The position numbers and the translations under genes are program-made. From Candidatus Aenigmatarchaeota archaeon (GTDB lineage Archaea; Aenigmatarchaeota; Aenigmatarchaeia; QMZS01), in contig JAFGCN010000018.1 of assembly GCA_016932615.1 (NCBI GenBank), positions 5,936-69,935 on the forward strand: 64,000 nucleotides of DNA, in the 5' to 3' direction. The notes beneath the pieces were generated by a model. That model did not search any database. It was not told the origin of the DNA and worked only from the letters and a program-made list of their open reading frames with translations. Shown in pieces: positions 27,560-43,397 of the stretch. The number at the start of each line of letters is the position of its first letter. Position 1 is the first letter of the stretch.

Positions 27560-27933
27560 GGGCCCGTAGCTCAGTCCGTATCCCTTTCTTTCCAAAAGAA
27601 AGGTCTAAGGGTCACCCCAAAGAAAGGGTTTCCCTTGGCTAATTTGGTCAGGAGAATAGGATACGGGAGCAATTTGGATAGAGCGCTTGGCTTCGGTTGA
27701 GCCCTTTTCTCGCGAGAAAAGGTTTCAATCCCAAAAGAGGCATATTCCTGCTTCGCAGAAAGAATGCCTCAGGGGAAGGACTTGTTCAGCCAAAATGCCT
27801 GCATTCGTCCAGAAGTATCAGAAGGTACCAGGAGGTCGGGGGTTCAAAGTCAGGCTTTCTTTCTAAAGAAAGAACGCCCGACACCTCTAAGAAAGAACTC
27901 TTCTTGGAGAAGATGAAAATCCTCCCGGGCTCA
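27560..27933 (+). tRNA. tRNA-Arg(UCG) with three introns
   Basis: Acceptor GGGCCCG (27560-27566) pairs with CGGGCTC (27926-27932), discriminator A 27933. Proposed exons are 27560-27574, 27673-27696, 27827-27848 and 27920-27933, which join to a 75-nt class I tRNA. D stem is GCTC/GAGC, anticodon stem CTTGG/CCAGG, anticodon TCG at 27693-27695, and T arm GGGGG-TTCAAAT-CCTCC. The introns are about 98 nt (D-loop), 130 nt (after G37) and 71 nt (T-loop, 59/60). Intron 1 ends pair perfectly (CCGTATCC/GGATACGG). Splice points are my inference from secondary structure. A T-run follows the gene. Confidence 0.8.
27579..27628 (+). repeat. Intron repeat copy 1 (tRNA-Arg D-loop intron)
   Basis: TATCCCTTTCTTT, a short loop, AAAGAAAGGTCT, then a GGGTCACCCCAAAGAAAG tail. 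It is nearly identical to the inverted copy in the T-loop intron of tRNA-Leu(CAA) (43008-43052) and related to the GGTCTGACAACCCC version in the tRNA-Leu D-loop introns. Confidence 0.7.
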
Positions 27934-27942
27934 TTTTTTTAA
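27933..27942 (+). terminator. T-run terminator after tRNA-Arg
   Basis: A run of eight T directly follows the discriminator A, typical of archaeal polymerase termination. Confidence 0.5.
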
Positions 27943-27999
27943 AAAATTTGACATATGCCAGATTCCTTCAGAACGACAATTTGAGAGTGGGTTTTTCTT

Positions 28000-28165
28000 T
28001 GGGGTTGTCAGCCCTTTCTTTTTAGTGAAACTCCCGGAAAAGAAAGGTATGACCCCGGGCTTATATTTTAAAAACTGCAACCGAGGAAAACACACAAAAA
28101 TACCCCTTAAGCAGTTTTCTTCTGGGGTTGTTAGACCTTTTCTTTTTCTAAAGAAAGGGGCTGAC
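28000..28165 (-). repeat. Two solo copies of the tRNA-intron repeat outside a recognisable tRNA
   Basis: This 166-nt part of the 259-nt gap between tRNA-Arg and the FTR-like gene holds two minus-strand copies. At about 28003-28062 the minus strand reads GGTCATACCTTTCTTTTC ... AAAGAAAGGGCTGACAACCCC. At about 28112-28162 it reads CCCCTTTCTTT ... AAAGGTCTAACAACCCC. No cloverleaf could be assembled around them. They may be relics of a decayed tRNA or insertions of the element itself. Confidence 0.6.
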
Positions 28166-28192
28166 TTTTAAGCTTTTAATCCTGAATTATCT

Positions 28193-28486
28193 ATGAAAAA
28201 GGAGGCAAAGGACCAATCAACCGAGGAAAAGGTCGCCCAATTGATGAAAAATTATGAAGCTTATGCTGACGAGGAGGGAATCCGGCTCAACCCAAACAAG
28301 GTAATCGTCGAGGCGGTAATCCGGCGGCTCGTCCATAACGAAAATATTTACGGCTGCGCCTATTGCCCCTGCCGGAAAGTCACCGGAAAAAAGGCGGAAG
28401 ACAAGAAAATTATCTGCCCCTGCATATTTCACAGGGACGAAATCCGGGAAAAAGGCCATTGCCACTGCATGCTGTTTGTAAGGTGA
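28193..28486 (+). CDS. Ferredoxin:thioredoxin reductase catalytic subunit-like protein
   Basis: A 97-residue FTR beta-type protein. Its Cys pattern CAYCPC (55-60), CPC (75-77) and CHC (90-92) matches the CPC/CPC/CHC signature that binds the [4Fe-4S] cluster next to a redox disulfide. It is expected to reduce thioredoxin-like partners with electrons from ferredoxin. Full length for the family. The upstream alpha subunit of plants is not expected in archaea. Confidence 0.88.
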   Translation: MKKEAKDQSTEEKVAQLMKNYEAYADEEGIRLNPNKVIVEAVIRRLVHNENIYGCAYCPCRKVTGKKAEDKKIICPCIFHRDEIREKGHCHCMLFVR

Positions 28487-28513
28487 TTTAAAAACATTTT
28501 TGCAGATTAAGGT

Positions 28514-29716
28514 ATGGCTTACCAACCGCCCCAAAAAATTCTAGACAAATACGCTGATTTATTGGTAAATTTTGCGCTGGGTGGAGGAAAAGGTGTAAAG
28601 CCGGGGGAAGTAGTATTCCTTCAGGTGCCTGAATGCGCTAAGCCCATGCTTGCCCCACTTCAGAGGGCGGTCCTCAAGGCAAAAGCGCATGCGATAATCC
28701 AGTACCTGCCTGAAGGCATTTCGAGGGATTTTTTTGAGATAGGAAGCGAAAAGCAGTTCACATATTTCCCAAAAAAATTTATGAAGTCGCGAGTCGATAC
28801 AATAGACCACAACATAAGCATTATTTCTGAAACAAATCCGCATGAGCTTGAGGGAATAAACCCGAAAAAGATAATGGCCCGGCAGAATGCCTGGAAACCG
28901 TACCTGGACTGGATTAACGAAAAGGAAAACAAAAAGAAATTCACCTGGACTCTTGCACTCTATGGTACAGAAGGCATGGCAAAGGAGGCTAAAATGACCC
29001 TTAAGGAGTATTGGGCGGAGATCATAAAAGCATGCTACCTTGACAATCCAAATCCAATAAAGAAATGGAAGGAAATCTCGGCAGAGGTCAACAGAATAAA
29101 AAGCAAGCTGGATAAGCTCAAGATAAAAAAAGTCAGAGTCGAGGCCAGAGGAACAGACCTGACCATTGGAATCGGAAAAAAGCGCAAGTGGTGTGGCTGC
29201 GAAGGAAGAAACATTCCAAGCTTCGAGATCTATACAAGCCCCGACTGCAGAGACATAAACGGACACATATCCTTCAATGTTCCGCTTTACAGATTTGGAA
29301 ATCTCATTAAAGATATCCAGCTCGACATTGAACACGGGAAAATCGTAAGGGCAAAAGCAAAGCAAGGAGAAAAATTCCTGAAAGAAATGATAAAAACGCC
29401 TGGAGGAGACCACATCGGAGAGTTTTCCATGACTGACAAGAGACTTTCAAGAATCACAAAATATATGGCAACCACCCTATTTGACGAAAATGTTGGAGGA
29501 AAATTTGGGAATTCTCACTTAGCTCTTGGAAAATCCCTATGGAACACCTATGACGGCGACCTGTCAAAAACCTCTAAAGGTGCGCTAATGAAGCTTGGCT
29601 TCAATGATTCCCCAATTCACGTAGACATCTTCAACACAGAAAACAGAAAAGTCACCGCAACGCTCGAAGGTGGAAAAGAAGTCGTAATTTACAAAGACGG
29701 AAAATTCCAAGTCTGA
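28514..29716 (+). CDS. M29-family metalloaminopeptidase
   Basis: A 400-residue aminopeptidase of the AmpS/T/PepS family. The conserved C-terminal metal segments are seen: EIYTSPD, GDHIGEFSMTD, then TLFDENVGGKFGNSHLALG, with the usual Glu/His ligands. It removes N-terminal residues in the cytoplasm. Length matches the family (about 370-410). It starts 27 nt after the FTR-like stop. Confidence 0.88.
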   Translation: MAYQPPQKILDKYADLLVNFALGGGKGVKPGEVVFLQVPECAKPMLAPLQRAVLKAKAHAIIQYLPEGISRDFFEIGSEKQFTYFPKKFMKSRVDTIDHNISIISETNPHELEGINPKKIMARQNAWKPYLDWINEKENKKKFTWTLALYGTEGMAKEAKMTLKEYWAEIIKACYLDNPNPIKKWKEISAEVNRIKSKLDKLKIKKVRVEARGTDLTIGIGKKRKWCGCEGRNIPSFEIYTSPDCRDINGHISFNVPLYRFGNLIKDIQLDIEHGKIVRAKAKQGEKFLKEMIKTPGGDHIGEFSMTDKRLSRITKYMATTLFDENVGGKFGNSHLALGKSLWNTYDGDLSKTSKGALMKLGFNDSPIHVDIFNTENRKVTATLEGGKEVVIYKDGKFQV

Positions 29717-29726
29717 CCCTTGTATA

Positions 29727-29744
29727 AAACTCGCCGACGAGTTT
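29727..29744. terminator. Hairpin between convergent genes
   Basis: A perfect 7-bp inverted repeat AAACTCG-CCGA-CGAGTTT lies in the 36-nt space between the convergent M29 and 207-residue genes, a plausible bidirectional terminator. Confidence 0.35.
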
Positions 29745-29752
29745 ATTGATTC

Positions 29753-30376
29753 TTATTTGTATAGGGTTTCTGCCCAGGCCTTCGCAAGCTCTTTACTTCC
29801 CATTTGAAAAGGGTAGTTAAGCCCTTCAAGCTCTTTTATCAATGCCTGCATCCCGTGAGGCCGGACAGGCATCAGCATTGTTTCAAGTTCCTCTGGCTCT
29901 TTCATGCGCTTCATCACGAGATAGTGCAGGTAAAATTCTGCAAATTCCTTTTTGGAAAGGGGCGTTGAGGAGTAAACCTTCGAGGCAATAAGCTCGACAA
30001 AAAACTGCTTCATAATCTTGAGGTACCCGTGCTTTGCCGCCCGAAGGTCAGCAAAAAAATCCTGAACCTGCGGCACCAGGCGCGGGCAGTCTATCCTTTC
30101 CTGGATTTCCTTATTCACGCCTTCCTTTTCGTTCAGCAAAAGAAAGATAAACCGCACAAAGTAGCCCCGGAAAAGCTGGCGGTTTTTCACCTTTTCGTTT
30201 TCTGGGTTTACGAAAATCTCCATGTCCTTTCCGGTGTCTCCTTTCAGGAACTCGACCTTGCAGCTTTGGGTTATAATTATTCTCTCGAATCTTAGCGGGT
30301 AATCTAATTTTGTAATAAGGTCGGCAATCTCTTGCTTAAGAGACTCGTCGTCCATCTCAAAAACAAGATGGGTCAT
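29753..30376 (-). CDS. Hypothetical protein, 207 residues
   Basis: Soluble alpha-rich protein; no motif recognised. It has a leaderless-type start (ATATTATGAC) and normal base composition for the region. The single Cys pair and absence of membrane segments give no functional clue. Confidence 0.6.
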   Translation of the reverse strand: MTHLVFEMDDESLKQEIADLITKLDYPLRFERIIITQSCKVEFLKGDTGKDMEIFVNPENEKVKNRQLFRGYFVRFIFLLLNEKEGVNKEIQERIDCPRLVPQVQDFFADLRAAKHGYLKIMKQFFVELIASKVYSSTPLSKKEFAEFYLHYLVMKRMKEPEELETMLMPVRPHGMQALIKELEGLNYPFQMGSKELAKAWAETLYK

Positions 30377-30421
30377 AATATTCTTCTTCTGGTAATCTTA
30401 AGTGTTTAATCGCTCGTGTAG

Positions 30422-31288
30422 CTACTCCCGCCTGCAAAAAATATAGCTTAGGAAAGCATATACCAGCTTTGCTGCCAGGAAATCGGGCGCCTTGTTCTGA
30501 GGATTTGGCGAAAGCTCAACAAGGTCAAACCCCACAATTTCTTTTTCCTCGGCGAGCCGCTTTAAGAACTTAAGAACTTGGTACCACTGGAGCCCGCCCG
30601 GCTCGGGAGAGCCCGTCGAAGGCATGATTCCTGTGTCAAAAACGTCCAAATCAATTGTCACATAGACCTTCTGCCCTGCGGACCTGACTGCCTCTTCAAT
30701 CCAGCTCTCAGTATTCCAGAGGTCTTTGGCGTAGAAGATTTTTCCGGTTTCCGTTTTTTCGAGTTCCGTGTCATCCATGCTCCGGATTCCAACCTGAACA
30801 ATATCTGCAACTTCCCTTGCCCTTGCCATCACGCTGGCGTGGCTTAAGGGATCTTCATTGTATTCGTCCCTCAGGTCCGTGTGGGCGTCAAGCTGGACAA
30901 CCGTCAGGACGCCCTGTTTTGCGTGAGCCCTTATCGCGCCGATGCTCACGGTGTGCTCGCCTCCAAGAATCACAGTAAACTTGCCCTTTGAAGAAAGCCG
31001 CGCCACTTCAGCTTCAACTGTTTCCACAAGCTCTTTTGAACTATCCGCACCAATCGGCTCGGCTGTATAAATTCCCTTTTCACAAACTGAAAAATCCGTC
31101 TCGATGTCGTAAAGCTCCATGTACTGGGAGGCCTTGATTATCGCCTCAGGACCTTTTTCAGAGCCCTCTGTCCAGCCCCGAAGCCAAAAGCTGGTCTTAT
31201 CAAACGGAACGGGAAGAATTACAATCTTGGCTTTTTCCAGCTCAGAATATTCTCCGGTAAGCCCTGCAAAGTTGAGTTTTTCTTCCAT
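30422..31288 (-). CDS. speB: Agmatinase / arginase-family ureohydrolase
   Basis: A 288-residue ureohydrolase with the binuclear Mn site: GGEHTVSIG, DAHTDLRDE, and TIDLDVFDTGIMPSTGSPEPGGL. The length and the short N-terminus match archaeal agmatinases, which convert agmatine to putrescine plus urea for polyamine (and hypusine) synthesis. No eIF5A gene is adjacent here. A link to the GNAT-HDAC fusion (possible acetylpolyamine turnover) is speculative. Confidence 0.9.
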   Translation of the reverse strand: MEEKLNFAGLTGEYSELEKAKIVILPVPFDKTSFWLRGWTEGSEKGPEAIIKASQYMELYDIETDFSVCEKGIYTAEPIGADSSKELVETVEAEVARLSSKGKFTVILGGEHTVSIGAIRAHAKQGVLTVVQLDAHTDLRDEYNEDPLSHASVMARAREVADIVQVGIRSMDDTELEKTETGKIFYAKDLWNTESWIEEAVRSAGQKVYVTIDLDVFDTGIMPSTGSPEPGGLQWYQVLKFLKRLAEEKEIVGFDLVELSPNPQNKAPDFLAAKLVYAFLSYIFCRRE

Positions 31289-31356
31289 AATAATAGCGCC
31301 TAGGAAAGCTCAAAAAAAGAGTAAAACTCAATGAGGATGCAGTAAGCACAGTACTG

Positions 31357-31767
31357 CTAGAACTGAATTTTTCTGGCAGTACCTAGAACCAAGTCTCTCA
31401 TTGGACATATCTGACAATCCGAATTTTCAGATAGATACTTTATTTGTTTATCCCTAATCTCCATAACATCTCCTGTTTCCAAGGGCAAAACTCCCGTGTG
31501 TTTTAATTGATTAAACAGATTGTACGTTGCTCCACAGGAATCGCAAATATCCCCCCTCCATTTGAGGTAACTAACTTCGGCAATCTCTTTAGCAAAACTT
31601 GCGGTATCTAATCCGCCTAATCCTGAAGCATCACACCACCTCTCATAGGTATCACCGGGAAGTAATTTTAGATTAAGCGCCTGCCGCTCCAGAATTCTTT
31701 CTGGGGTCTTCTTGCCCGGCCTTCCGCACATCACAGGTTCGCCATCGCCAGAATATTCAAAAACCAT
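31357..31767 (-). CDS. Hypothetical protein with Cys pairs
   Basis: 136 residues. A CDSC pair (about 74-77) and a CQICPM pair near the C-terminus could form a zinc site or bind a cluster. The start is supported by an AGGTG Shine-Dalgarno-like element 6 nt before the ATG at 31767. It lies just downstream of the uL23 gene on the same strand, so it may be the last gene of that unit. Confidence 0.55.
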   Translation of the reverse strand: MVFEYSGDGEPVMCGRPGKKTPERILERQALNLKLLPGDTYERWCDASGLGGLDTASFAKEIAEVSYLKWRGDICDSCGATYNLFNQLKHTGVLPLETGDVMEIRDKQIKYLSENSDCQICPMRDLVLGTARKIQF

Positions 31768-31784
31768 AATCGCACCTCAAAAAC

Positions 31785-32051
31785 CTAAATTACGCCAAGC
31801 TTAACGGCAATATCTCCTGCAGGGCTTTCTGGCTTCAATTTAACGATTGCCTTCTTGCTCCCTGTCCGGTCAATAAGCGTGTTAACCTTTTCCACTTTGA
31901 CCTTGAATTCCTCTTCAAAGGCCTGCTTTACCACCATCCGGGGCGTTTTAAGGACTTTCAGCTTGAAAATCAGCTTGTTTTCGCTCTCTATGAGCCGAAC
32001 CGCCTTTTCGCTCGTAACCGGATGCTCCACTAGCTCCCAAAATGATACCAT
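31785..32051 (-). CDS. rplW: Large ribosomal subunit protein uL23
   Basis: An 88-residue uL23: LVEHPVTSEKAVRLIESENK and the C-terminal KKAIVKLKPESPAGDIAVKLGVI are characteristic. It lies near the peptide exit tunnel and contacts SRP and Sec61. The canonical neighbours uL4 (upstream) and uL2 (downstream) are missing from direct contact: uL4 is at 35283-36080, same strand, with five unrelated genes in between. Confidence 0.95.
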   Translation of the reverse strand: MVSFWELVEHPVTSEKAVRLIESENKLIFKLKVLKTPRMVVKQAFEEEFKVKVEKVNTLIDRTGSKKAIVKLKPESPAGDIAVKLGVI

Positions 32052-32129
32052 AAGATAAATAGCAAAAGATTAAAAGGGTCTAAAAGGCAAAAAATTCGCC
32101 CCTCTTGTATATTATAGCAGATATGTATT

Positions 32130-32903
32130 ATGGCTGATTCCTCAGCAAAAGGAGCATATTCTGGATACTCTGAAAATAAAGGTGCGAAGGCACGGTCGGC
32201 AGGCAATGTCAATCCCCCCGTTGGCTTTGACCCAAATTACTTCAGGCAGACCTCCAAAGGAGATGCTAATAACCCGGAGGCAAAAAAAGCCGCCGAGGAA
32301 TTATACGAGGCGCTTCCCCCAGCAATCCAAAACTATCTTGCCCGGGAGCAGGCGGCAACTTCAAGAGCAAACTACGGCCCACCCACAAACCACAAAATCA
32401 TGTCTGGTGTAGATGCGGCATATATGAAGCAGGGCTCAAAAAGCCCAGTTAACTATGCCGCCACTCCTGGAAAATCGCCGGGGCAGATGCAGGTCGCGCC
32501 AAATTATGATAGCAAAATGGCGCAGCAGCTGGGCCCGGGCAAGGGGCCAAATCCTCAGATGCCCGTCCCCCCAAGCCCCGGACGAATGCTGGCTTCCATG
32601 TTTATCCCCTTAATCCCCTCAGCACTTGTTTACAAAGCCGGATTCAACATAGCCCAGTCAGCATTCCCTGGATTGGCATACTCTAGTCTACCCTATATTG
32701 GGAGTCTAGGAGGACCCGGAGGACTCGCCCTGGGAATCGGCATGGCCTACGGACTAACCAAGGTATCTGGAGCAGTTTTCAAGGGCGCAAGCAAAGTCGT
32801 CCAGAAAGTGTACCAGAAAAAAGACAAGCTGAATAAGGGCTACGAAGCCCTTCAAAAGCCAGGCGCCGCGCCGGCAGGCCCGATGCCTGCAAGAGGAATA
32901 TGA
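32130..32903 (+). CDS. Orphan membrane protein A (disordered N-terminus, two TM)
   Basis: A 257-residue protein. Residues 1-150 are low-complexity, rich in Ala/Gly/Pro/Asn/Gln, with no signal peptide. Two hydrophobic segments follow (about 152-174 and 185-208). A basic helical tail ends it (VFKGASKVVQKVYQKKDKLN). It shares segments with protein D (33986-34792): MSGVDAAYMKQGSKSPV versus VSGVNGTYSSGGIQSPV, YDSKMAQQL versus YDSGMASQL, and the FKG...GYE tail. Its stop overlaps the start of gene B as ATGA. Function unknown. Confidence 0.7.
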   Translation: MADSSAKGAYSGYSENKGAKARSAGNVNPPVGFDPNYFRQTSKGDANNPEAKKAAEELYEALPPAIQNYLAREQAATSRANYGPPTNHKIMSGVDAAYMKQGSKSPVNYAATPGKSPGQMQVAPNYDSKMAQQLGPGKGPNPQMPVPPSPGRMLASMFIPLIPSALVYKAGFNIAQSAFPGLAYSSLPYIGSLGGPGGLALGIGMAYGLTKVSGAVFKGASKVVQKVYQKKDKLNKGYEALQKPGAAPAGPMPARGI

Positions 32904-33463
32904 CCGAAGGAGAAATCAAGGCAGGAGGAAAAACAATCCTGGAAAATGTGCAGGGTGCGTACCGACAGGAAAAATCAGCTCCACCTGTAGTGAATCGGGC
33001 AGGAATGGCGCAATACAACTCCTCAATTGCTTCGCCCTACCTGGCAAACACAGCCCCATACTCTGCTTTCCCCCCACCAGGCGCAAAGCCCGCCCAGCTA
33101 TCCAAAAAAGCGCAGCTTGGAGTTTACCTTGCAATCGGAGCGCCAATTACATATTGGATTGGCGCAAAAATCGCCCAAAAAAGCGAACCTGTGGCAGAAT
33201 ACCTGCAGGAACATGGAGGTGTTCTTGGAAGGGATTGGATTGGGCTCGAGCCGCTAGCCATTGGAATCCCGACAATCCTTGGGCTTTACCTTGCAACAGA
33301 TAAAATCGTCGAGCGCCTTAGGCCAACTGCAGAAAAAATTGCAAAAGGCCCTGCAAAAAAGCTTGTAGACGGATACAAAAAGCTGGAAGACCGCGCGGCA
33401 GATTCCCTTTTGGCCGCAGATTCCATAGTGCAAAAGGCCAAAAAAGCGCAGGAAAGGAGATAA
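32900..33463 (+). CDS. Orphan membrane protein B (two TM, helical tail)
   Basis: 187 residues with the same layout as A and D. A polar N-terminus with AGMAQYNSSIASPYLANTAPY precedes TM segments at about 72-90 and 112-132 and a helical basic tail (about 135-187, KKLVDGYKKLEDRAADSLL). It overlaps gene A by 4 nt and converges on gene C with 3 nt between the stops. Confidence 0.65.
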   Translation: MTEGEIKAGGKTILENVQGAYRQEKSAPPVVNRAGMAQYNSSIASPYLANTAPYSAFPPPGAKPAQLSKKAQLGVYLAIGAPITYWIGAKIAQKSEPVAEYLQEHGGVLGRDWIGLEPLAIGIPTILGLYLATDKIVERLRPTAEKIAKGPAKKLVDGYKKLEDRAADSLLAADSIVQKAKKAQERR

Positions 33464-33466
33464 ATA

Positions 33467-33859
33467 CTACTCAAGAATTTTTCTGAGCCGTCCCGCTTTT
33501 CCCTCGCTAAGCTTCTTGTCGATCTCACCGGAAAGAATTTCAAAAAATTTCATCTGCCCATCTATGAATTCTTCAGCTGCCTTCAACCCTTCCTTATCGT
33601 CTTTTGCGCATTTCTTTAGTGCCTTTTTAACCTCAGCAAAATATTCTATCCATGTCTCTGAAACCCCTTTTGCAACCTTCAGCCGCTCAAGATCTCCCTC
33701 TCGCTCTGCCTCGTCAATCGCCCTCAAAAGAACAGTAACCTGCTCGTTATACCTGCCTTCTGTTTCCTTGAGAAGCTGGTCAAAATCAATCTGAATGGGA
33801 GAAAAATCCTCCATTGGGCACGAGGTCTTCCTTGAAGCCCTCTTTTTACAGGCAGCCAT
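33467..33859 (-). CDS. Orphan helical protein C (paralogue of E)
   Basis: 130 residues, all-helical, charged. It shares QVTVLLRAIDEAEREGDLE and FFEILSGEIDKKL with protein E at 34821-35213, so the two are paralogues. Start set at ATG 33859, with AT-rich TATA-like sequence upstream; an earlier in-frame ATG at 33949 would overlap the divergent promoter of gene D. It has a conserved WIEYF centre but no catalytic motif. Confidence 0.68.
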   Translation of the reverse strand: MAACKKRASRKTSCPMEDFSPIQIDFDQLLKETEGRYNEQVTVLLRAIDEAEREGDLERLKVAKGVSETWIEYFAEVKKALKKCAKDDKEGLKAAEEFIDGQMKFFEILSGEIDKKLSEGKAGRLRKILE

Positions 33860-33985
33860 AACTTTCCTAAGGAAATATATATTCAAGACAGGTAAAGCTT
33901 GTTCGCAGATCCTTGCTTTCCTGCAAACCTCCCCAAACCACTCTGACAAACCAAAACCGCTTAAGTACTCCCGCCAGCTAATATT

Positions 33986-34792
33986 ATGGAAAGCCCGCCC
34001 AAAAAGGGAACTCCTGGCAATATTCAGGATATAACTGGGCCATATATCGCTTCTTTAGCTTTACCGCAAGGAAAATACACTTCAACTGCAGCCGCTCCGC
34101 CCACAGGCGCAAGCTATAATTCTTCCGGGAGCTCCGCAACTTCCGGAAACACAATTGTAAACAATACCATGGCTCAGTATGAAAACGCCACTGGCAAAAC
34201 TGCAGTTCCTGTTTCTGCTTCCGGACAGTATAACGGCGCTCATGCTCCAGGAAGCAGGCAAAGCATAGTTTCAGGCGTTAATGGCACATATTCTTCGGGA
34301 GGAATTCAAAGCCCCGTTGCAGGGCGTCCGGGCGCGCCTGCTTACGATAGTGGTATGGCTTCCCAGTTAAAAGCGAACCCTCAGGTTCCAGGAAGAAGGT
34401 CTCCAGCGAGCAGTGGAACCCAAATGGCAGGAACTGCACTAAAAACCTTTCTTCCGGTAGGGCTTGGGCTAATGGCTTCTTCTGCCTGGTACGGAATTGC
34501 AATTAAGGGCTCCTATGCAGCATCCAAGGATGCAGCCACCTCGCCCCAGTTTGCCGAATTTATGAGCCAGCACAGCTGGTTTGCCCCTGCACCCCTTATT
34601 GCAGGAACCGTAGCGATATACCTTGGCTCAAGGGTTTCAGGCCGGATTTTCAAAGGGGTCATGAAATATTCCTCAGGCATTATGAAAAAAATAGAAAACA
34701 AAAAAGCCGCCAGAGAGCTTGAAGCGGGCTATGAGCGGCTTGCAAAGGCCGCGGCACTTCCCGTCACTCCAAAAGCAGCCCCAATTTCCTAA
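33986..34792 (+). CDS. Orphan membrane protein D (paralogue of A)
   Basis: 268 residues. The N-terminal about 150 are low-complexity Ser/Ala/Gly/Pro/Asn-rich, followed by two hydrophobic segments (about 153-175 and 197-218) and a helical tail ending AGYERLAKAAALPV. It is homologous to A over shared linker motifs. The ATG lies in CTAATATTATGG context (leaderless). It converges on gene E. Confidence 0.7.
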   Translation: MESPPKKGTPGNIQDITGPYIASLALPQGKYTSTAAAPPTGASYNSSGSSATSGNTIVNNTMAQYENATGKTAVPVSASGQYNGAHAPGSRQSIVSGVNGTYSSGGIQSPVAGRPGAPAYDSGMASQLKANPQVPGRRSPASSGTQMAGTALKTFLPVGLGLMASSAWYGIAIKGSYAASKDAATSPQFAEFMSQHSWFAPAPLIAGTVAIYLGSRVSGRIFKGVMKYSSGIMKKIENKKAARELEAGYERLAKAAALPVTPKAAPIS

Positions 34793-34820
34793 AAATTAAG
34801 AGCCCATAAAGCATTACGGC

Positions 34821-35213: not shown

Positions 35214-35282
35214 AATATTTGCTAAATCGATATACTTAATAGCCGCCCTGCACAGACTGCAATCAAAAAAATCCCATTCAAA

Positions 35283-36080: not shown

Positions 36081-36173
36081 AAACTACCTAGATAAAAATT
36101 AAAATAGGTGTATTGTGTTGATGAAAATAGAGAAATAGAGTTATTTTAGTGCCAGCCCACATAATCCAAACCT

Positions 36174-36803
36174 CTATATCCTAAAACCTAAAGGTAGTAC
36201 TCTTTTTGCAGGAGGTGGTCTTATGCCAGTTCTTTCCAGAACAACACTTGCTTTGATGGGACGACCTATCAGAGAAAGACCTCGCTTCGCCCTCTCTTCC
36301 TCTTCCATAGCTCCCGTAAAGACTTCCTGTCCAAACTCTGGCTGCCTTATCTCACCACCAGAATACCTTAAGTCAAGCTTAAACCTACCCTCAGGGGTCC
36401 TGCTTCTTCCAACTACATCAAACCTAAGCAAAACATCGCGGTATTTAAGATATATCTCCTTTCCCATATCGCCCCGATACAAAAGATTACCTCCACTCAA
36501 AAAAGCCCCCTCCAGCTTGCTTGCCGGGTCTGAGCCAAGAATATGCCTCATTGCGGGGTCATCCCCACGGTAGTCGGACTCACCAAAAGCATAGTAAAAA
36601 GCCCTTTCAACCAACCCTGGATTATGCCCCGATTCATTGGAAGGGACAGTAACCTGTACTTCATACCGACCCGGGCGATATATCCACCCTTTGCCTTTTA
36701 GGTAATCATATTTCCCAGGGGGGCGCCTTTTTTTCAGGGAAGGGGGAGGATCATAACCATTATATGTATCAAACGCTTCTGTTGGAGCAGGTATCATCAG
36801 CAT
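36174..36803 (-). CDS. Hypothetical protein, about 209 residues
   Basis: Predicted from MLMIPAPTEAFDTYNGYD; an upstream in-frame extension to 36905 is possible but its start context is poor. It appears beta-rich, with a Pro/Lys-rich N-terminus and many Gly/Arg/Tyr (GWIYRPGRYEVQVTVPSNES). No family recognised. Confidence 0.5.
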   Translation of the reverse strand: MLMIPAPTEAFDTYNGYDPPPSLKKRRPPGKYDYLKGKGWIYRPGRYEVQVTVPSNESGHNPGLVERAFYYAFGESDYRGDDPAMRHILGSDPASKLEGAFLSGGNLLYRGDMGKEIYLKYRDVLLRFDVVGRSRTPEGRFKLDLRYSGGEIRQPEFGQEVFTGAMEEEERAKRGLSLIGRPIKASVVLERTGIRPPPAKRVLPLGFRI

Positions 36804-36964
36804 CCAGCACCGTATCCTGACATAATAAACTACTTGGATAAAAAATAAAATACACAATCGGGCAGAACCCGGGGGCATCCCAACTCCAATAACACAAGCA
36901 ACCACACCAGTTATAACAATTAAAGTGAACCACCCTCATGTCAAGAACACGGAGAGTTCAAGGA

Positions 36965-37210
36965 TTAGAATAGGCGTCTTCCGAAAAAAGCTACTGACGT
37001 CAGTCCATTAAGCCAGTTGGAAGCGCACCTGCACCCTCCAACAGTGGTATCTGTTAGGCCAAAAAACAGGGGAAAGGCAAAAACCGAAACTCCGGAAAGG
37101 GCTAAAATAGTACCCATAGTAATTCTTGTAAGCCCCCTGCCCAATTGATATACCGGGTTTTTTGGGAGTGGCCTGACAAGCTCAAAAAGCCGCCTTATAT
37201 GCTCAAACAT
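36965..37210 (-). CDS. Small membrane protein
   Basis: 81 residues starting MFEHIRRLFELVRPLP, with two hydrophobic segments (about 27-50 and 60-75). ATG 37210 is chosen because GGTGA lies 6 nt upstream (Shine-Dalgarno); the GTG 9 nt upstream is part of that element. Unknown function. Confidence 0.5.
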   Translation of the reverse strand: MFEHIRRLFELVRPLPKNPVYQLGRGLTRITMGTILALSGVSVFAFPLFFGLTDTTVGGCRCASNWLNGLTSVAFFGRRLF

Positions 37211-37294
37211 AATCTTCACCAGATAATTGGTTTACCATTCAGGGCTTAAATACTTTTCTTAGAACGGCAATAGTCGATAATCTGGGAATTCTGC

Positions 37295-37644
37295 CTATTT
37301 CCAGGTCTTGTCCAGCCCGGTTACGATCCCAAGTGTTGCGGAAATTCCCCCATAAAATCCGCTGTGCTCGCATCCATAATTGACGATATCCCAAAATGTT
37401 GCCGTTTGGTCCATCGCGGCCTCAACAGCGCAGAGGACTCCAAATGATGCAAGCCCTACCGGGAGGGCATATCTAGTGAACTTAAGATCCCACTGCTGAT
37501 CTTCATCCAGGTCATGAAACTTTGGAATTCGGGAGCCAATTTCCCCGGCAGCTCATTTCTGGGCGTTCCTGCCCCATAGAGAGAGGTACTCCTCCACAAG
37601 TCAAGCCCATGTCGCAACTTATCAGTAATGTATGCTTCCCCCAT
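37295..37644 (-). pseudogene. Small two-segment gene split by a frameshift
   Basis: From ATG 37644 the frame MGEAYITDKLRHGLDLW... stays open to 37456. In another frame, starting near 37510, a well-formed continuation reads LDEDQQWDLKFTRYALPVG and on to a hydrophobic Gly/Ala-rich segment, ending GLDKTWK at a TAG (37295-37297). The second part has no good start codon and a TGA precedes it, so a disrupted gene is likelier than two genes. A programmed frameshift or sequencing error is also possible. Confidence 0.4.
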
Positions 37645-37689
37645 AAATAGCAAATGGCTTATTTTTAAACAAAATTGAGCTTAAGTTAT

Positions 37690-38027
37690 GCGGGGGTCGC
37701 CAAGTCTGGTCTCATCCCTTTCTTAAAAGAAAGGTCTTACAACCCCAAAGAACGGGATACCAGAAAAAGGTGCAAGGCTTAGGTGTCTTACCGGCACCTG
37801 CAGGTGCAATGCCCAGGAGCTTGGCTGAGAAACCTTGTGGGTAAATCTTTTTCTTTGGAAAAGAAAAAGCTTTAATCCAAAAAGAAATAAGATTCCACAA
37901 TAGTCCCTACGTGAGTTCGAATGAAGCTTTTTCTCGCAAGAAAAAGCTCCAGGACCAAAAAGAGGCAGTTTCACCGCTTCGCGGATAAAACTTGCCGAAT
38001 TGGTTTACGAAAGTCTCACCCCCCGCA
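37690..38027 (+). tRNA. tRNA-Leu(UAG) with four introns
   Basis: Acceptor GCGGGGG (37690-37696) pairs with CCCCCGC (38020-38026), discriminator A 38027. Proposed exons are 37690-37710, 37764-37783, 37832-37846, 37905-37921 and 38014-38027, joining to an 87-nt class II tRNA. Anticodon stem is CAAGG/CCTTG with TAG at 37780-37782. Variable stem is GTGGG/CCTAC and T arm GTGAG-TTCGAAT-CTCAC. Introns are about 53 nt (D-loop), 48 nt (after G37), 58 nt (variable arm) and 92 nt (T-loop 59/60). D-intron flanks pair (TCTGGT/ACCAGA). Boundaries are inferred from folding only. Confidence 0.78.
37713..37754 (+). repeat. Intron repeat copy 2 (tRNA-Leu(UAG) D-loop intron)
   Basis: CATCCCTTTCTT-AA-AAGAAAGGTCT followed by TACAACCCCAAAGAA. 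It matches the D-loop intron of tRNA-Leu(CAA) on the other strand and, at lower identity, the tRNA-Arg D-loop intron. Confidence 0.7.
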
Positions 38028-38057
38028 TTATCTTTTAAGCCCTGCCAAGTACTGTAA

Positions 38058-38450
38058 CTATTCAATTGTTTCGTTCGGGCTCGGAACCGCCGGAATCCAG
38101 ACGCACTTGTTCTGACGGCACTTAATCTCAGTCTCCTTCGGCCCGGTTCCGCACTGATAGCTGCACTCCGCGCATTCCTCCCGATATTCAAGAACAGACT
38201 CTTCCAAGCGGGTAATGTTTGCATCAAGACTAACCAGGGTGTGGCAGCCAAAGGGGCAGCCAAATGAAGCAACGCTACAGTCAGAATCGCTCTGGCAGTG
38301 ATTTTCCTCGCCCAGAAGCGCAAATAGATCATCCTGGCGGCCCTGGCAGGCGGTTTGTGACACCTGCCCCGCAAAGTGCCCAATCAAGAATATAGCGCCA
38401 ACCGCCATAAGAAAGACAAAAGAAACCGCAAAAAACACCTTTTTGCCCAT
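38058..38450 (-). CDS. Secreted or membrane-anchored Cys-rich protein
   Basis: 130 residues. The N-terminal hydrophobic segment (about 4-27, FFAVSFVFLMAVGAIFLIGHF) acts as anchor or signal, followed by an outer domain with about 11 Cys (CQGRQ, CQSDSDCSVASFGCPFGC, CAECSYQC, CRQNKC). I use ATG 38450 (TTATGGGC context). Disulfide-rich extracytoplasmic protein of unknown role; similar in design to 13317-13625. Confidence 0.65.
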   Translation of the reverse strand: MGKKVFFAVSFVFLMAVGAIFLIGHFAGQVSQTACQGRQDDLFALLGEENHCQSDSDCSVASFGCPFGCHTLVSLDANITRLEESVLEYREECAECSYQCGTGPKETEIKCRQNKCVWIPAVPSPNETIE

Positions 38451-38549
38451 AATTCTCTTACCGCAGGATATAATTACCATTCGGTGCCTTATTGCCCCTA
38501 ATAGATAGGTCAGAAGAAACCTAGCTTTAATATATCTGCAAGGGAAATT

Positions 38550-39074
38550 ATGAGACCTGAAATCGACTTGATTCCCCTTGATAATGTAGACCAAACGACC
38601 GTCGAGGAGCTTAAGCGCTCTCTCAAGGAGAAAGGGTGCATTGTACGGCTTTATGCAAGGACACACAGCCCTAAAACGGCAGAGAACCTCTACAGAAAGC
38701 AGTGCCTTGTAGACGTGATTGTCGACGCCCTGAAGGGGCTTTCAGGAAAGGTCATCGCCATAACAGACAAGGACCTATACTCAAACAAGCTTAATTTCGT
38801 ATTTATGTCGGTCCAGCCAAACGGGCCTGTAGTCCTTTCTACCCATCGGCTAAGGCCGGAATTTTATCAGGAAAGGCCGAACAATGACCGGACAACAAGC
38901 CGTCTCCTGAAAGAAACAATCTACTGCATAGGAAAGATGAATGGGATTGGTGACTGCCCTAATCCCAGGTGCATAATGCACAAGTCCGCTTCAGCCAGGG
39001 ACATAGACTTCAAGTCCGAGGAATTCTGCAAGGACTGCAAGATAAACAATATTGTAGACAATATGAGATTATGA
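38550..39074 (+). CDS. Archaemetzincin homologue lacking the catalytic site
   Basis: A 174-residue protein with the archaemetzincin (AmzA) scaffold: ITDKDLYSNKLNFVFM, VVLSTHRLRPEFY, and the structural Cys4 site CPNPRC ... FCKDC (Cys136, 141, 160, 163). Where the family has the zinc motif KExxHELGHxxGLxHC, it reads KETIYCIGKMNGIGDC. All three metal His and the catalytic Glu are replaced (Tyr125, Cys126, Lys129, Asp135). It is therefore a probable pseudoenzyme. Its stop overlaps the start of endA (ATGA), so they are translationally coupled. Confidence 0.85.
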   Translation: MRPEIDLIPLDNVDQTTVEELKRSLKEKGCIVRLYARTHSPKTAENLYRKQCLVDVIVDALKGLSGKVIAITDKDLYSNKLNFVFMSVQPNGPVVLSTHRLRPEFYQERPNNDRTTSRLLKETIYCIGKMNGIGDCPNPRCIMHKSASARDIDFKSEEFCKDCKINNIVDNMRL

Positions 39075-39931
39075 GCGCAAAAAAACAGTCCGGAACAAAG
39101 AAAAGAGCAAAGGCTGTCGACTTTGAGGAAAGTGCAAGTTTTTCCGAAGAGGAAGAAACTGCAGAGGTTTTGAAAAGCGCCAAAAAGCCAAAGGGCGTGA
39201 GCAAAAAGAAAGAAACCGGGGCAAAGACAAAAAAGGCCAAAGCTCAGGAAGAAGCCACCATTGACGAAGAATTTGCTGAAGAACGGGATGATGATTCCGG
39301 TGAGGAAGAAACAGACGAAGATTACGGGGAAGGAGATTACGACGAGGCAAAGCCAAAAGTATTCCAGGAAGAGCCGTTTTCAAAAGCCCCAAAAAAAGTC
39401 TATTCCGGAAAATTCTTTGAAAACAAAGTCCACATCTGGGGAAAGCAGGACGCCGAGGAGATTTATGACCTTGGCTGCTTTGGAAAGGTAGACGAGGAAA
39501 AAAATGAGCTTTCCTTTGAGGAAGCCCTTTTGCTGATGAGGCGAAACAAGCTTCGGGTTTCAAAAGATGGCACGGAGGTAAGCTCTGAAGAATTCTACCA
39601 GATTGCCTGCAATGCCGACAAAGAGTTTCCCTGGAAGTTCAAGGTTTACGAGGAGCTTAGGGGAAGAGGCCTTCTTGTCAGGACTGGCTTCAAGTTCGGC
39701 ACCCATTTCAGGGTTTACGGCAGGGGAGTCAAGCTGAAGAGAGGGCCAAAGTCAGTAAAGGAGCACACAAAGTGGATTGTCCATGCAGTCCCCGAGAACT
39801 ACACCTGCTCATTTCCAGAGCTTTCCAGAGCCGTCCGGCTGGCGCACAACATCCGGGCAAAGATGCTCTGGGCAGTTGTTGACGAGGAGGGAGATGTGAC
39901 CTATTACGAGGTTTTAAGGAAGACTCCTTAA
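39071..39931 (+). CDS. endA: tRNA-splicing endonuclease with acidic N-terminal extension
   Basis: A 286-residue archaeal EndA. The catalytic triad is Tyr216 (THFRVY), His232 (KEHTKWIVHAV) and Lys264 (NIRAKMLWAVVD). Residues about 105-286 are the standard single-unit enzyme. Residues 1-100 are a Lys- then Asp/Glu-rich disordered extension not found in typical about 180-residue EndA. It cleaves bulge-helix-bulge introns from tRNAs; this window alone has ten candidate introns. It starts inside the archaemetzincin-like gene. The subunit type looks like alpha4, not the fused epsilon2 form of ARMAN. Confidence 0.93.
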   Translation: MSAKKQSGTKKRAKAVDFEESASFSEEEETAEVLKSAKKPKGVSKKKETGAKTKKAKAQEEATIDEEFAEERDDDSGEEETDEDYGEGDYDEAKPKVFQEEPFSKAPKKVYSGKFFENKVHIWGKQDAEEIYDLGCFGKVDEEKNELSFEEALLLMRRNKLRVSKDGTEVSSEEFYQIACNADKEFPWKFKVYEELRGRGLLVRTGFKFGTHFRVYGRGVKLKRGPKSVKEHTKWIVHAVPENYTCSFPELSRAVRLAHNIRAKMLWAVVDEEGDVTYYEVLRKTP

Positions 39932-39949
39932 ATAGCGGCTAATTAGATT

Positions 39950-40513
39950 ATGGATTTGATTGCTTTGCTGCAGAATACGCTCTACTTTTTTGTAGCTTCT
40001 GGAATCATAGCTTTGTTGATTAAGTCATTGATTAAATTATACTTGGATAAAGACTTGGAAGCTTATAAAGAGAAACTGAAGCAAGAAACGATACGGTATT
40101 CAAAACTGCACGAAAAGAGAGCAGATGCTATAGAGGAACTATTTGAAAAACTTGTTGATTATAAGAATTATGCTGAAGGTGTGAAATGGGCTAAGGAAAG
40201 TAATATTTCTGGAAAAGAATTGAAGGAAATCGAAGAAAATTTCAGGATAGCACATAGAACATTTTTGGATTGTTTGAATAAAAAAGGCAATCTTTATTTC
40301 GGCGGCAAGACTCCAGAGCTTTTGGAAGCACTACACTTTGAAATAATGCGAACCAAAACACACACCGAGGCAAAATGCAAAGATGGAAAGAACATGGACT
40401 TTACAAGCTTAAAGAACATTCTCGAGGATATCAAAAACGCAGAAAAGGCAGTAGCAAACTCAGAAAAAGAATTAATCAATGAATTTCAAACCATCTTGGG
40501 TGTCAAAAACTAA
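39950..40513 (+). CDS. Single-TM protein with cytoplasmic helical domain
   Basis: 187 residues. An N-terminal membrane helix (about 10-28) precedes a charged, helical domain (EAYKEKLKQETIRYSKLHEKRADAIEELFEKL). The gene is more AT-rich than its neighbours, with different codon choice (many TTG, AAA, TTT), which suggests acquisition. Proteins of this design occur near bacterial defence loci, but nothing diagnostic is seen. 18 nt after endA. Confidence 0.6.
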   Translation: MDLIALLQNTLYFFVASGIIALLIKSLIKLYLDKDLEAYKEKLKQETIRYSKLHEKRADAIEELFEKLVDYKNYAEGVKWAKESNISGKELKEIEENFRIAHRTFLDCLNKKGNLYFGGKTPELLEALHFEIMRTKTHTEAKCKDGKNMDFTSLKNILEDIKNAEKAVANSEKELINEFQTILGVKN

Positions 40514-40529
40514 GCCCAAGAATCTTCAG

Positions 40530-40703
40530 CTAGTCGTACTTCACTTTCCAGGCCGAATACGCCTTGTCTTTTCTCTCTTTCTCATTCCACCTTGTCAGTT
40601 CCATCAGCCGCACCCAATTCCTGCCCACCCTTTCCTCTCCCACCTGCCTGAAATCTCGCCTACTCGCTAAATCCCTCCCAACATCCACAACCTCAGCGCC
40701 CAT
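40530..40703 (-). CDS. Hypothetical 57-residue microprotein
   Basis: A short minus-strand frame MGAEVVDVGRDLASRRDFRQ ... AYSAWKVKYD. The ATG at 40703 has CTTAAATAC about 25 nt upstream, the usual leaderless promoter spacing of this genome. It fills the gap between two plus-strand genes and is rich in Arg/Glu/Trp. No family recognised; coding status rests on the frame and promoter only. Confidence 0.4.
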   Translation of the reverse strand: MGAEVVDVGRDLASRRDFRQVGEERVGRNWVRLMELTRWNEKERKDKAYSAWKVKYD

Positions 40704-40790
40704 ATGCGGCTTTATCTGTCGGGGTATTTAAGCTAAACTCCGGAAGGGAGCAAATGTCGAAATTTTTGGCTTCTAATTTGAAGATATTTT

Positions 40791-41561
40791 ATGGTATCAG
40801 GCCTCATTATTCTCGATAAACCCTCAGGCCCCACAAGCTTTGACTGCGTCGAGAGAGTCGGGAAAATATTTGGGGAAAAACGGTGCGGCCACACCGGGAC
40901 ACTTGACCCGAAAGTCACTGGGGTCCTGCTGGTCTTGGTTGGCGAGGCAAGAAAGCTCGTTCCCTTTTTCGAAAAAGCTGACAAGACCTACACAGGCATA
41001 ATGCATATGCACTCCGAATTTGATACAGATAAACTACACGAGATAATTTACGAGTTTACCGGAGACATAACGCAACTTCCGCCCCGGCTTTCAAGAGTAA
41101 AAAGAGTTGAGAGGCAAAGGACAATCCACTGCATGAAAATTGACAGAATTGAGGGGCAGGACGCAACAATAATAATCCACTGCCAGCACGGGACTTACGT
41201 CAGGAAGCTCTTCCATGACATGGGCGAAAAGCTTGGGACGGGCGCGCACATGAAATACCTTCGGAGAATCGCAGCCGGAAAATTCGGGATTGATGAAGCA
41301 GTAACTTTCGAGGAACTGGAAAAAGCCCCGGAAAAGCACCTAATACCTATGGAAGAGGTTATCGAACGGCTTGGAATAAAAAAGCTGGTTTTGCCAAAGG
41401 AAATGGAAAAGCAGGTTTCAAATGGTGTTCCGATAGTGCTTGAAACTCCAGAAGACTACCCGTCAGAAGAGAAAATTGCAATATTCGTAGAAGAGAATCT
41501 AAGGGCACTTGGAAAGGAAAGGGGTAGAAAAGTGGCAATAGAGCGGCTTATTTTAATATAA
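40791..41561 (+). CDS. Cbf5/TruB-type RNA pseudouridine synthase
   Basis: 256 residues. The catalytic motif GHTGTLDPKVTGVL (33-46) contains Asp39; QHGTYVRKLFHDMG and LRRIAAGKFGIDEA also fit Cbf5. A short PUA-like end (about 195-256) is reduced compared with archaeal Cbf5 (about 330), so this is a compact form. Cbf5 uses H/ACA guide RNAs with Nop10, Gar1 and L7Ae, and can make Psi55 in the tRNA T-loop. Relevant here because T-loops of the tRNAs are intron-split. Confidence 0.88.
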   Translation: MVSGLIILDKPSGPTSFDCVERVGKIFGEKRCGHTGTLDPKVTGVLLVLVGEARKLVPFFEKADKTYTGIMHMHSEFDTDKLHEIIYEFTGDITQLPPRLSRVKRVERQRTIHCMKIDRIEGQDATIIIHCQHGTYVRKLFHDMGEKLGTGAHMKYLRRIAAGKFGIDEAVTFEELEKAPEKHLIPMEEVIERLGIKKLVLPKEMEKQVSNGVPIVLETPEDYPSEEKIAIFVEENLRALGKERGRKVAIERLILI

Positions 41562-41574
41562 ATAGCCAAAAACC

Positions 41575-41730
41575 CTAGAAGATTATCCTCGAAAGAACCA
41601 AAATAAGGCAGATTCCAAAACCAAGAGCCAGAACGACTTCCGGCTTCAGGTTAATCCCTTCTTCAACCTCATCGCTGTAGTTTATAAGCCCTGCCATTGT
41701 CTGAGGCATCCTCTTTTTTTCCTGCGCCAT
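41575..41730 (-). CDS. Preprotein translocase subunit Sec61-beta
   Basis: A 51-residue reading frame starting MAQEKKRMPQTMAGLINYSD. The cytosolic N-terminal half with the AGL...Y motif, EVEEGINLKPE, and one C-terminal TM helix (VVLALGFGICLILVLSRIIF) are classic archaeal Sec61-beta. Tail-anchored, part of SecYE-beta. Its start is leaderless-type (TATTATGGC). Confidence 0.9.
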   Translation of the reverse strand: MAQEKKRMPQTMAGLINYSDEVEEGINLKPEVVLALGFGICLILVLSRIIF

Positions 41731-41780
41731 AATAGATAATCTCAGCAATAACTATATAAAAAAGAGGCAAAAACAAAAAA

Positions 41781-41999
41781 TTACTCCTTGGAAGAAGCAG
41801 GCCTGCTTTGGTACGGCTCTGGGTACTTGTTATCTCCTCCAAGGTATGCGCCGACATGCGCTCCTGCACCCACGCCCAAAGCTGTGTATAGGGCGTCCGA
41901 AGCAGTGACACCATCCGAAAGGTACGCCACAACACCGGCACCGACCAAGGCAAGCAAGGCCGTAGGCAGATAGTTTATGTGGTTAGATATTTTTCCCAT
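41781..41999 (-). CDS. Two-TM Gly/Ala-rich microprotein, array member 1
   Basis: 72 residues: TM1 about 12-30, a short acidic loop (SDGVTASDAL), TM2 about 38-52, ending GAHVGAYLGGDNKYPEPY. The ending resembles members 2 and 3: VGxY, then Gly and Tyr/Pro. Between Sec61-beta and two related genes, all on the minus strand. Function unknown. Confidence 0.6.
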   Translation of the reverse strand: MGKISNHINYLPTALLALVGAGVVAYLSDGVTASDALYTALGVGAGAHVGAYLGGDNKYPEPYQSRPASSKE

Positions 42000-42127
42000 A
42001 TTCTGCTTTCGATCAATGTATATTTGATATAAATGTAGCCCTCACTACAGAAGTAGTTCAATTGTAATGGAAGATAGCTCCCGCTGAATGGATGAAATAA
42101 GCAAAAATAAAGCAAAAAGAAAAGACC

Positions 42128-42421
42128 TTATGCCTTAGCCGCTGCTGGGTAAGCTGAGTATGCCTTTGGACCAGACACGGCGTTCTCCGCGTAGCTTCCG
42201 ACGGTACCACCGATAAGGGTGGCTGCACCTGCGTACAGGGCGTTCATGAAGCTAAGAGGGTCGACTGCCTCTGTGGTTGTTGCAGCGGTTGTTGCTCCCT
42301 CTGCGACGGTTTTTGCAGCCTCTACTGCGGTTGCAGGGTCAATAAGTGATGCGACTGCGTAAAGACCTGCCAAAGCACCCAAGGTTGCTCCGATGTATCC
42401 TATTTTTGTCATTTTTGTCAC
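42128..42421 (-). CDS. Two-TM Ala-rich microprotein, array member 2
   Basis: 97 residues: TM1 about 7-25, an Ala/Thr/Glu-rich linker, then DPLSFMNALYAGAATLIGG as TM2 and VGSYAENAVSGPKAYSAYP. Shares the DPL...AL...G..VG.Y core with member 3 (DPLGYWQAL). The start has AGGTGA upstream (Shine-Dalgarno). Confidence 0.62.
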   Translation of the reverse strand: MTKMTKIGYIGATLGALAGLYAVASLIDPATAVEAAKTVAEGATTAATTTEAVDPLSFMNALYAGAATLIGGTVGSYAENAVSGPKAYSAYPAAAKA

Positions 42422-42621
42422 CTAAATTTAATAGTATATTTTAAATAAATAGTTTTCGCCTGTGGAGTTACACTATAGTGCCTTTGTAGTTCAAAAGCAT
42501 TACAAAAGTAATGTTTTTTTGGAACATATGCTCCTCTAGCCCACCAAATACCCTTTAAAGCCAAAAAAGCGCATGGCGCCAAAGACACTAAAAAAACCAA
42601 AAACAAGCCAAAATAAAACAA

Positions 42622-42888
42622 TTATGCTGTGGCCTTTGCTGACTCAACGCCGGGGTAAGCCATCGCGTAAGAAGGAGGGCGACTGTCGCCTCCGGCAACA
42701 TACTCGCCAACCTTGTAGCCAAGTATGCCTGCAGCAGCGGCCTCCAGGGCCTGCCAGTATCCAAGAGGGTCTGCTCCGGCAACGCCATCCACAATCTCTG
42801 GCCCTATAAGGTAAGCAGCGCCAAGCGCAGCCAGGCCGCCAACCACAAGCCCTGCAATAGTAGGACTTCCGCCATTATTTCTTGCCAT
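42622..42888 (-). CDS. Two-TM Ala/Gly-rich microprotein, array member 3
   Basis: 88 residues: TM1 about 10-28, DPLGYWQALEAAAAGILGY as TM2, then VGEYVAGGDSRPPSYAMAYP. AGGTGA lies 9 nt before the ATG. The tail Tyr/Pro repeats (PPSYAMAYPG) are shared in style with member 2. Three such genes in 1.1 kb form a tandem family. Confidence 0.62.
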   Translation of the reverse strand: MARNNGGSPTIAGLVVGGLAALGAAYLIGPEIVDGVAGADPLGYWQALEAAAAGILGYKVGEYVAGGDSRPPSYAMAYPGVESAKATA

Positions 42889-43007
42889 TTTAGTTCACCT
42901 TTTTTTATAAGGCAATTCTGGTATTTATTGTTTTATTATTTTATCGTCACAATGCGCATAGTAACTGCCAAACCTCAAAAAATGATGCAGGAGGGCGGAT
43001 TTTCGCC

Positions 43008-43052
43008 TATCCCTTTCTTTAAAAAGAAAGGTCTGTGGGTCACCCCAAAGAA
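43008..43052 (+). repeat. Intron repeat copy 3, inverted (tRNA-Leu(CAA) T-loop intron)
   Basis: On plus: TATCCCTTTCTTT-AAA-AAGAAAGGTCTG then TGGGTCACCCCAAAGAAA. It is opposite in orientation to its host tRNA and almost the same as the tRNA-Arg D-loop intron (27579-27628). Confidence 0.7.
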
Positions 43053-43181
43053 AAAACTTTTCGTTCTTCCCAGGTGCCACATTATCCCCGTTCTGGTTAA
43101 AGAACGGAGATTACTTCGAACCGCCGAACTTACTAAAAGACTGGATGTCTCAATCGCCATCGTTTCTGCGAAGCGAATTTG

Positions 43182-43218
43182 CTTCTTGGGGTTGTCAGAC
43201 CTTCTTGCAAGAAGGGAT
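43182..43218 (-). repeat. Intron repeat copy 4 (tRNA-Leu(CAA) anticodon intron)
   Basis: On minus: CATCCCTTCTTGCAAGAAGG then TCTGACAACCCCAAGAAG. The same element as in the D-loop intron of this tRNA (43272-43316), with a shorter hairpin. Confidence 0.7.
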
Positions 43219-43271
43219 GACCTTGAGTCCAGCGCCTTTTTCTGGTATACTATAACCCAAATTTTTGTTTC

Positions 43272-43316
43272 TTTGGGGTTGTCAGACCTTCTTTCTTTTC
43301 AAAGAAAGAAGGGATG
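43272..43316 (-). repeat. Intron repeat copy 5 (tRNA-Leu(CAA) D-loop intron)
   Basis: On minus: CATCCCTTCTTTCTTT-GA-AAAGAAAGAAGG then TCTGACAACCCCAAAGAAA. Closest to copies 2 and 4. Confidence 0.72.
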
Positions 43317-43397
43317 AGACCAGACTTGGCTACTCCTGCATAAACTTAGTAGTAGATTCTTAAAAATAGCCCTAAAAGATTAAGCAATTCTAAAATA

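Follow-up and report, generated by a model that had tools for sequence, protein, structure and literature searches.

Archaeal tRNA genes interrupted by several introns have been described in the Thermoproteales, together with transposition of the introns (reviewed in PMC4090602 and PMC4033280; counts in PMC8450103), and Pyrobaculum calidifontis has 71 introns in 46 tRNA genes (PMC8450103). One review also names Nanoarchaeum, ARMAN and others as having such genes (PMC4033280). In the Asgard Atabeyarchaeia and Freyarchaeia, 92-95% of the tRNA genes are interrupted and more than half have several introns; three genomes contain 228 introns in total (PMC11291895). The statement in the original prediction that multi-intron tRNAs are known mainly in Thermoproteales is thus out of date. 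Here we analyze a 64-kb stretch (termed the window) of the genome of a small, uncultivated member of Candidatus Aenigmatarchaeota (DPANN), in which two tRNA-Leu genes and one tRNA-Arg gene contain ten candidate introns between them. We conclude that these are very probably functional tRNA genes, whose transcripts contain archaeal bulge-helix-bulge (BHB) introns that would be cut by a single EndA endonuclease and joined by RtcB.

No tRNA was found in the raw 64-kb window by ARAGORN, and none by Rfam. We rely on a purpose-built finder that scores the cloverleaf with any number of inserts, where an insert is permitted only at a BHB-like motif. Run over both strands of all 64 kb, it returned exactly three matches scoring above 42; the next-best score was 41.0, and two dinucleotide-shuffled versions of the window reached 41.5 at best. 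The same finder applied to intron-poor Nanohaloarchaeota gave mostly intact tRNAs or a single intron at position 37/38, so it does not force introns upon a gene. The three matches are tRNA-Arg(UCG) at 27560-27933 (+ strand, score 64.3), tRNA-Leu(UAG) at 37690-38027 (+ strand, score 60.2) and tRNA-Leu(CAA) at 42986-43339 (- strand, score 55.5), the positions at which they had been proposed. In each the exons are collinear and lie in one locus. Excision of the inserts leaves a full cloverleaf whose anticodon is plausible, one of the criteria for archaeal BHB introns, and the spliced sequences are identified by ARAGORN as Arg(tcg), Leu(tag) and Leu(caa). The finder reproduced the proposed distribution of three, four and three introns over the D-loop, anticodon loop, variable arm and T-loop. 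The spliced lengths of 75 nt for tRNA-Arg and 86 nt for tRNA-Leu(CAA) agree with the original prediction, while the 87 nt proposed for tRNA-Leu(UAG) should be 86 nt; this correction follows from a D-loop junction GGTC^AAAGG, which is backed by the intron-free relative L026.

Since the finder itself rewards BHB motifs, the junctions were also ranked by BHB alone, using no cloverleaf and considering every possible pair of sites within a gene. The introns of tRNA-Arg(UCG) take ranks 1-3 among 59,384 site pairs. They comprise a 98-nt D-loop intron following G15 (27575-27672, within the top 2), a 130-nt anticodon intron at 37/38 (27697-27826, top 1) and a 71-nt T-loop intron at 59/60 (27849-27919, within the top 3) for which the fold places a bulge at the 3' site. 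In tRNA-Leu(UAG) there are 51,896 site pairs; its D-loop intron (37712-37765, 54 nt) is within the top 11, its 37/38 intron (37784-37831, 48 nt) within the top 2, its variable-arm intron (37843-37900, 58 nt) within the top 3 and its 59/60 intron (37922-38013, 92 nt) is the top 1. In tRNA-Leu(CAA), on the - strand, the 37/38 intron (43147-43221, 75 nt) is within the top 9 and the 59/60 intron (43000-43114, 115 nt) within the top 3 of 55,224 site pairs. Nine of the ten window introns thus rank very high, the exception being the D-loop intron of tRNA-Leu(CAA) (43240-43317, 78 nt; p 0.0097). All ten have four out of four central pairs, so that the BHB motifs sought at the junctions are present.

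In the predicted folds the central 4-bp helix would be formed by pairing of the last four bases of the first exon before the 5' bulge with the 3' end of the intron, and each cut would fall within a 3-nt bulge. For introns at 37/38 and 59/60 a stem of the tRNA itself would serve as outer helix. The three T-loop introns of the window do lie at a common site, between 59 and 60, as had been noted; there the outer helix is the T-stem, the bases TTCA or TTCG (positions 54-57) pair with the 3' end of the intron, and the cuts would be made in 3-nt bulges after 59.

The strongest test of the junctions at the level of sequence is comparison with the tRNA-Leu(CAA) of relatives, which lies near EndA in several Aenigmatarchaeota. 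The comparison covers the Leu(CAA) sites. The D-loop intron is present in some relatives and absent in L026, the anticodon intron is absent in L021, and the T-loop intron is absent in both L024 and L027. At all three sites each uninterrupted sequence agrees with the predicted joined exons.

The analysis extended to the genome that contains the window (1.26 Mb in 29 contigs, estimated to be 97% complete), which was covered by searches and by two sets of sequence stretches, about 717 kb in all, plus the window. Thirty tRNA genes were found automatically and all thirty are interrupted, with 53 introns in all (about 1.8 per gene) and between one and four in each resolved gene. Two further introns in tRNA-Ser(UGA) lie beyond this set, and the genes for initiator tRNA-Met and tRNA-Lys(UUU) were read by eye. 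The Rfam tRNA model gives 8 matches over the whole genome, or 18 at E up to 10, compared with up to 40 in related families; those that were resolved are interrupted, and one further match (C17:42150-42227) is weak and tRNA-like. ARAGORN run without introns over about 781 kb reported one tRNA, Thr(CGU), and this carries an intron. Neither the genome-wide Rfam search nor ARAGORN in those 781 kb detected an intact tRNA gene, and thus no intact copy of the three window genes, which the original prediction had named as contrary evidence.

A number of unusual features were seen among these tRNAs. The initiator tRNA-Met (L013) has C33, and elsewhere (L119, L128 and L005) there are a tRNA-Leu with anticodon AAG, a tRNA-Ile with anticodon UAU and a tRNA-Asn with C55. 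At about 2312-2400 of L165 a 5' fragment of tRNA-Val (GGGCTCGTAGTCC) runs into an intron element directly upstream of a full tRNA-Val(CAC); this is possibly a tandem remnant or a half-gene.

The 53 introns are located at 37/38 (14), 59/60 (12), the D-loop (11), 53/54 (10), 54/55 (3) and other sites (3). They are 27-164 nt in length and have BHB motifs at their ends. The central helix has its complete 4 bp in 45 of the 53, although the finder favors good BHB motifs. In its strict form (hBHBh') the motif has outer helices on both sides. The outer helix h1 has at least two pairs in 36 introns, and many motifs must be considered relaxed because the second outer helix h2 reaches two pairs in just 29.

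The genome encodes the machinery that the proposed splicing would need. EndA is located between the two tRNA-Leu genes (39071-39931, + strand) in an open reading frame that opens at 38969; translation probably starts at the ATG at 39071, giving a protein of 286 amino acids. It has one N and one C domain (Pfam N-domain 1.4e-14, tRNA_int_endo 2.1e-25), and the catalytic Tyr, His and Lys region is present. Its closest matches are from Aenigmatarchaeota, with identity up to 77%, placing the host outside the Thermoproteales. It is the sole PF01974 match in the genome (E up to 10), and neither a second subunit nor a three-unit epsilon architecture was found, which suggests that the enzyme would be a homotetramer. 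An RtcB ligase is also encoded. EndA and RtcB are the established splicing route for introns of this kind, and provide the best explanation here.

Published endonucleases of broad specificity bear a CSL or an ASL loop (PMC12397907). Alignment of EndA with PDB structures revealed no long insertion at the corresponding place, set from residue numbers only, and from its sequence the enzyme seems to lack loops tied to broad specificity. It does have a Lys-rich insertion between the catalytic Tyr and His. This cannot explain the intron load, as it is shared with intron-poor Nanohaloarchaeota and is also present in NEQ205 of Nanoarchaeum equitans. The N-terminal tail of about 105 residues (39071-39386) is Lys-rich and acidic. 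Similar Lys-rich tails are present in several of the nearest relatives (L021-L025 and L027) and they are shorter in most others; over ten related genomes there is a weak trend of the tail with intron load, from which we make no claim.

Several observations weigh against the interpretation of these loci as functional, spliced genes. Splicing is a prediction from the DNA sequence. The gene set is partial, with about 33 tRNAs found against some 46 expected. The T-arm of tRNA-Arg(UCU) can be read as containing one intron or two, and the former would lower the total from 53 to 52. The D-loop junction of tRNA-Leu(CAA) is weak by BHB alone. Finally, the deficit in h2 noted above leaves relaxed motifs to be cut by an EndA that seemingly lacks the loops linked to relaxed cutting.

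Most of the introns are related to one another. Single-linkage clustering places 37 of the 53 in one similarity cluster (score threshold 40, where the maximum for shuffled sequences is 28), although a pyrimidine-purine hairpin accounts for part of the similarity. The clustered introns occupy 37/38, 53/54, 54/55, 59/60, the D-loop and the variable arm. Similar introns thus recur across tRNAs and across positions within them, the criterion of transposition used for Thermoproteales, and this points to one intron family that would have spread over many tRNAs and positions. The 5' end of the family consists of a hairpin that begins at intron base 1-2 and, after it, a box of the type CAAAAGAA. When 31 members of the cluster were aligned from intron base 1, the hairpin paired in 85% of cells and 12 of its 15 pairs were changed on both sides. 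There were 68 double-change cells, whereas shuffling gave 21.4 and sliding of the strands no more than 20, so the helix covaries. A C-A(3-5)-GAA box follows the hairpin in 28 of the 53 introns, against 4.4 in shuffles. The introns of relatives are built to the same plan but differ in sequence.

Within the window the family includes, by cluster, the D-loop intron of tRNA-Arg(UCG), and also the variable-arm intron of tRNA-Leu(UAG). We distinguish two core types. Type A comprises the D-loop introns of both tRNA-Leu genes and the 37/38 intron of tRNA-Leu(CAA), and type B the 59/60 intron of tRNA-Leu(UAG). The 3' part of the T-loop intron of tRNA-Leu(CAA) contains a reverse-complement type A copy (score 72, shuffle maximum 28). 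There are 11 copies of the type A core in this genome and at most one in each relative. For each of types A and B, 10 of the 11 genome-wide matches to the core motif lie inside tRNA introns.

Some copies are located outside recognised tRNAs. Two type A elements lie on the - strand between tRNA-Arg and the next gene, at 27995-28047 (nhmmer E 8e-6) and 28119-28159 (E 5e-6), each with a TATA-like stretch upstream. Examination of the two as an additional tRNA on either strand, or as a known RNA family, gave no credible result. An intergenic type B element with a core identical to the tRNA copies (L112, G000:C11:42472-42494) lies directly upstream of a gene that resembles, as judged by eye, a replication factor C subunit.

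Many introns of the family have an h2 of 0-1 pairs but form a stable hairpin immediately at the 5' splice site. This raises the possibility, to which we give slightly less than an even chance, that the 5' hairpin replaces the second outer helix of the BHB as a portable half-motif. As the hairpin would then stand in for that helix, the intron would need just a short 3' match to a new exon and could be spliced almost anywhere. It is conceivable, though we consider it somewhat doubtful, that this is an archaeal introner-like element, that is a self-contained splicing module of 5' hairpin and box carrying its own half of the BHB. Such a module would have copied itself to many positions across the majority of tRNA genes, and occasionally between genes, and its splicing would fall to an endonuclease that is encoded by one gene and has none of the loops known for broad specificity. 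No match to a Y1 (IS200/IS605) transposase was found in the gene search (other transposase families were not searched), and no reverse transcriptase was detected.

The same sequences might instead be a DNA element of the miniature inverted-repeat transposable element type, inserting in both orientations and also between genes, of which only spliceable insertions survive within tRNAs. The copies outside recognised tRNAs (28159 and 28047 of the window, and C11:42472) and the reverse-complement copy in the T-loop intron of tRNA-Leu(CAA) would fit such an origin. However, the concentration of both core types in tRNA introns, the fact that copies start at the 5' splice site, and the lack of a Y1 transposase match in the limited search described above all argue against it, and we think this explanation unlikely. 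A further proposal concerns the retention of the introns. Mobile-element integration favors anticodon and T-arm sequences, and introns have been proposed as a shield against it. The concentration of introns at 37/38, 53/54 and 59/60 is as expected for this, but D-loop introns are common too and the favored sites are also those where the stems of the tRNA provide a helix of the BHB, making a protective role improbable as the reason they are kept.

The very high intron load, and the existence of one truncated tRNA-Val fragment with its element, could suggest that these interrupted loci are pseudogenes in decay, with translation depending on other, intact tRNA genes. Yet no intact gene was found in a genome that is about 97% complete, and the exons retain all their stems and agree with the Leu(CAA) of relatives. 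We consider this very improbable indeed. There was no Rfam match in the window to the catalytic core of group I or group II self-splicing introns. Functional genes with BHB introns spliced by EndA and RtcB remain our preferred interpretation.

Comparison with the known systems indicates what is new. Like the Thermoproteales, this archaeon has several BHB introns per gene, sites that include 53/54 and 59/60, and near-identical introns across tRNAs and positions. It differs in belonging to an unrelated lineage and in having four introns in one gene where the stated maximum for Thermoproteales is three; moreover the enzyme there is a two-subunit (alpha-beta)2 form with a lineage loop, whereas here one EndA gene was found, apparently lacking that loop. 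The near-fully interrupted tRNA set and the non-canonical sites resemble those of Atabeyarchaeia and Freyarchaeia, but these are of another lineage, and in the parts of the account cited no common intron family or 5' module is described (PMC11291895). ARMAN (Micrarchaeota) and Nanoarchaeum equitans are also DPANN with non-canonical introns (PMC12397907, PMC4033280), and NEQ205 of the latter has the same kind of Lys-rich insertion as EndA here. Their enzymes are either epsilon-2 with an ASL loop or two-subunit, in contrast to the one gene found here, in which we saw neither an ASL nor a CSL insertion; nor did we observe any split tRNAs.

Earlier work had thus already described tRNAs with several introns, the site at 59/60, transposition of introns and tRNA sets in which nearly every gene is interrupted (PMC4090602, PMC4033280, PMC8450103 and PMC11291895). 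The Aenigmatarchaeota lineage, four introns in one gene and a conserved 5' intron module are new, and we found no paper on Aenigmatarchaeota tRNA introns in a search confined to an open library. The original prediction that a gene with four introns, and multi-intron tRNAs generally, occur outside the Thermoproteales is upheld by the sequence, the BHB motifs and the comparison with Aenigmatarchaeota relatives. We note that the tRNA-Asn of the Aenigmatarchaeota genome NC_groundwater_1917 (L040) is predicted to have four short introns, so that this archaeon may not be alone in having a gene with four. A genome of the same class (G025) has two Rfam tRNA matches at 87% completeness and is a candidate for still heavier interruption.

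These results place near-total interruption of tRNA genes in the DPANN phylum Aenigmatarchaeota. With one large family whose 5' module can be recognised and whose empty sites can be traced, the question of how archaeal introns multiply becomes open to test. The same is true of whether a load of non-canonical introns needs a two-subunit or loop-bearing endonuclease. Finally, because standard finders miss most of the tRNAs here, the apparent genome quality of such archaea is lowered.

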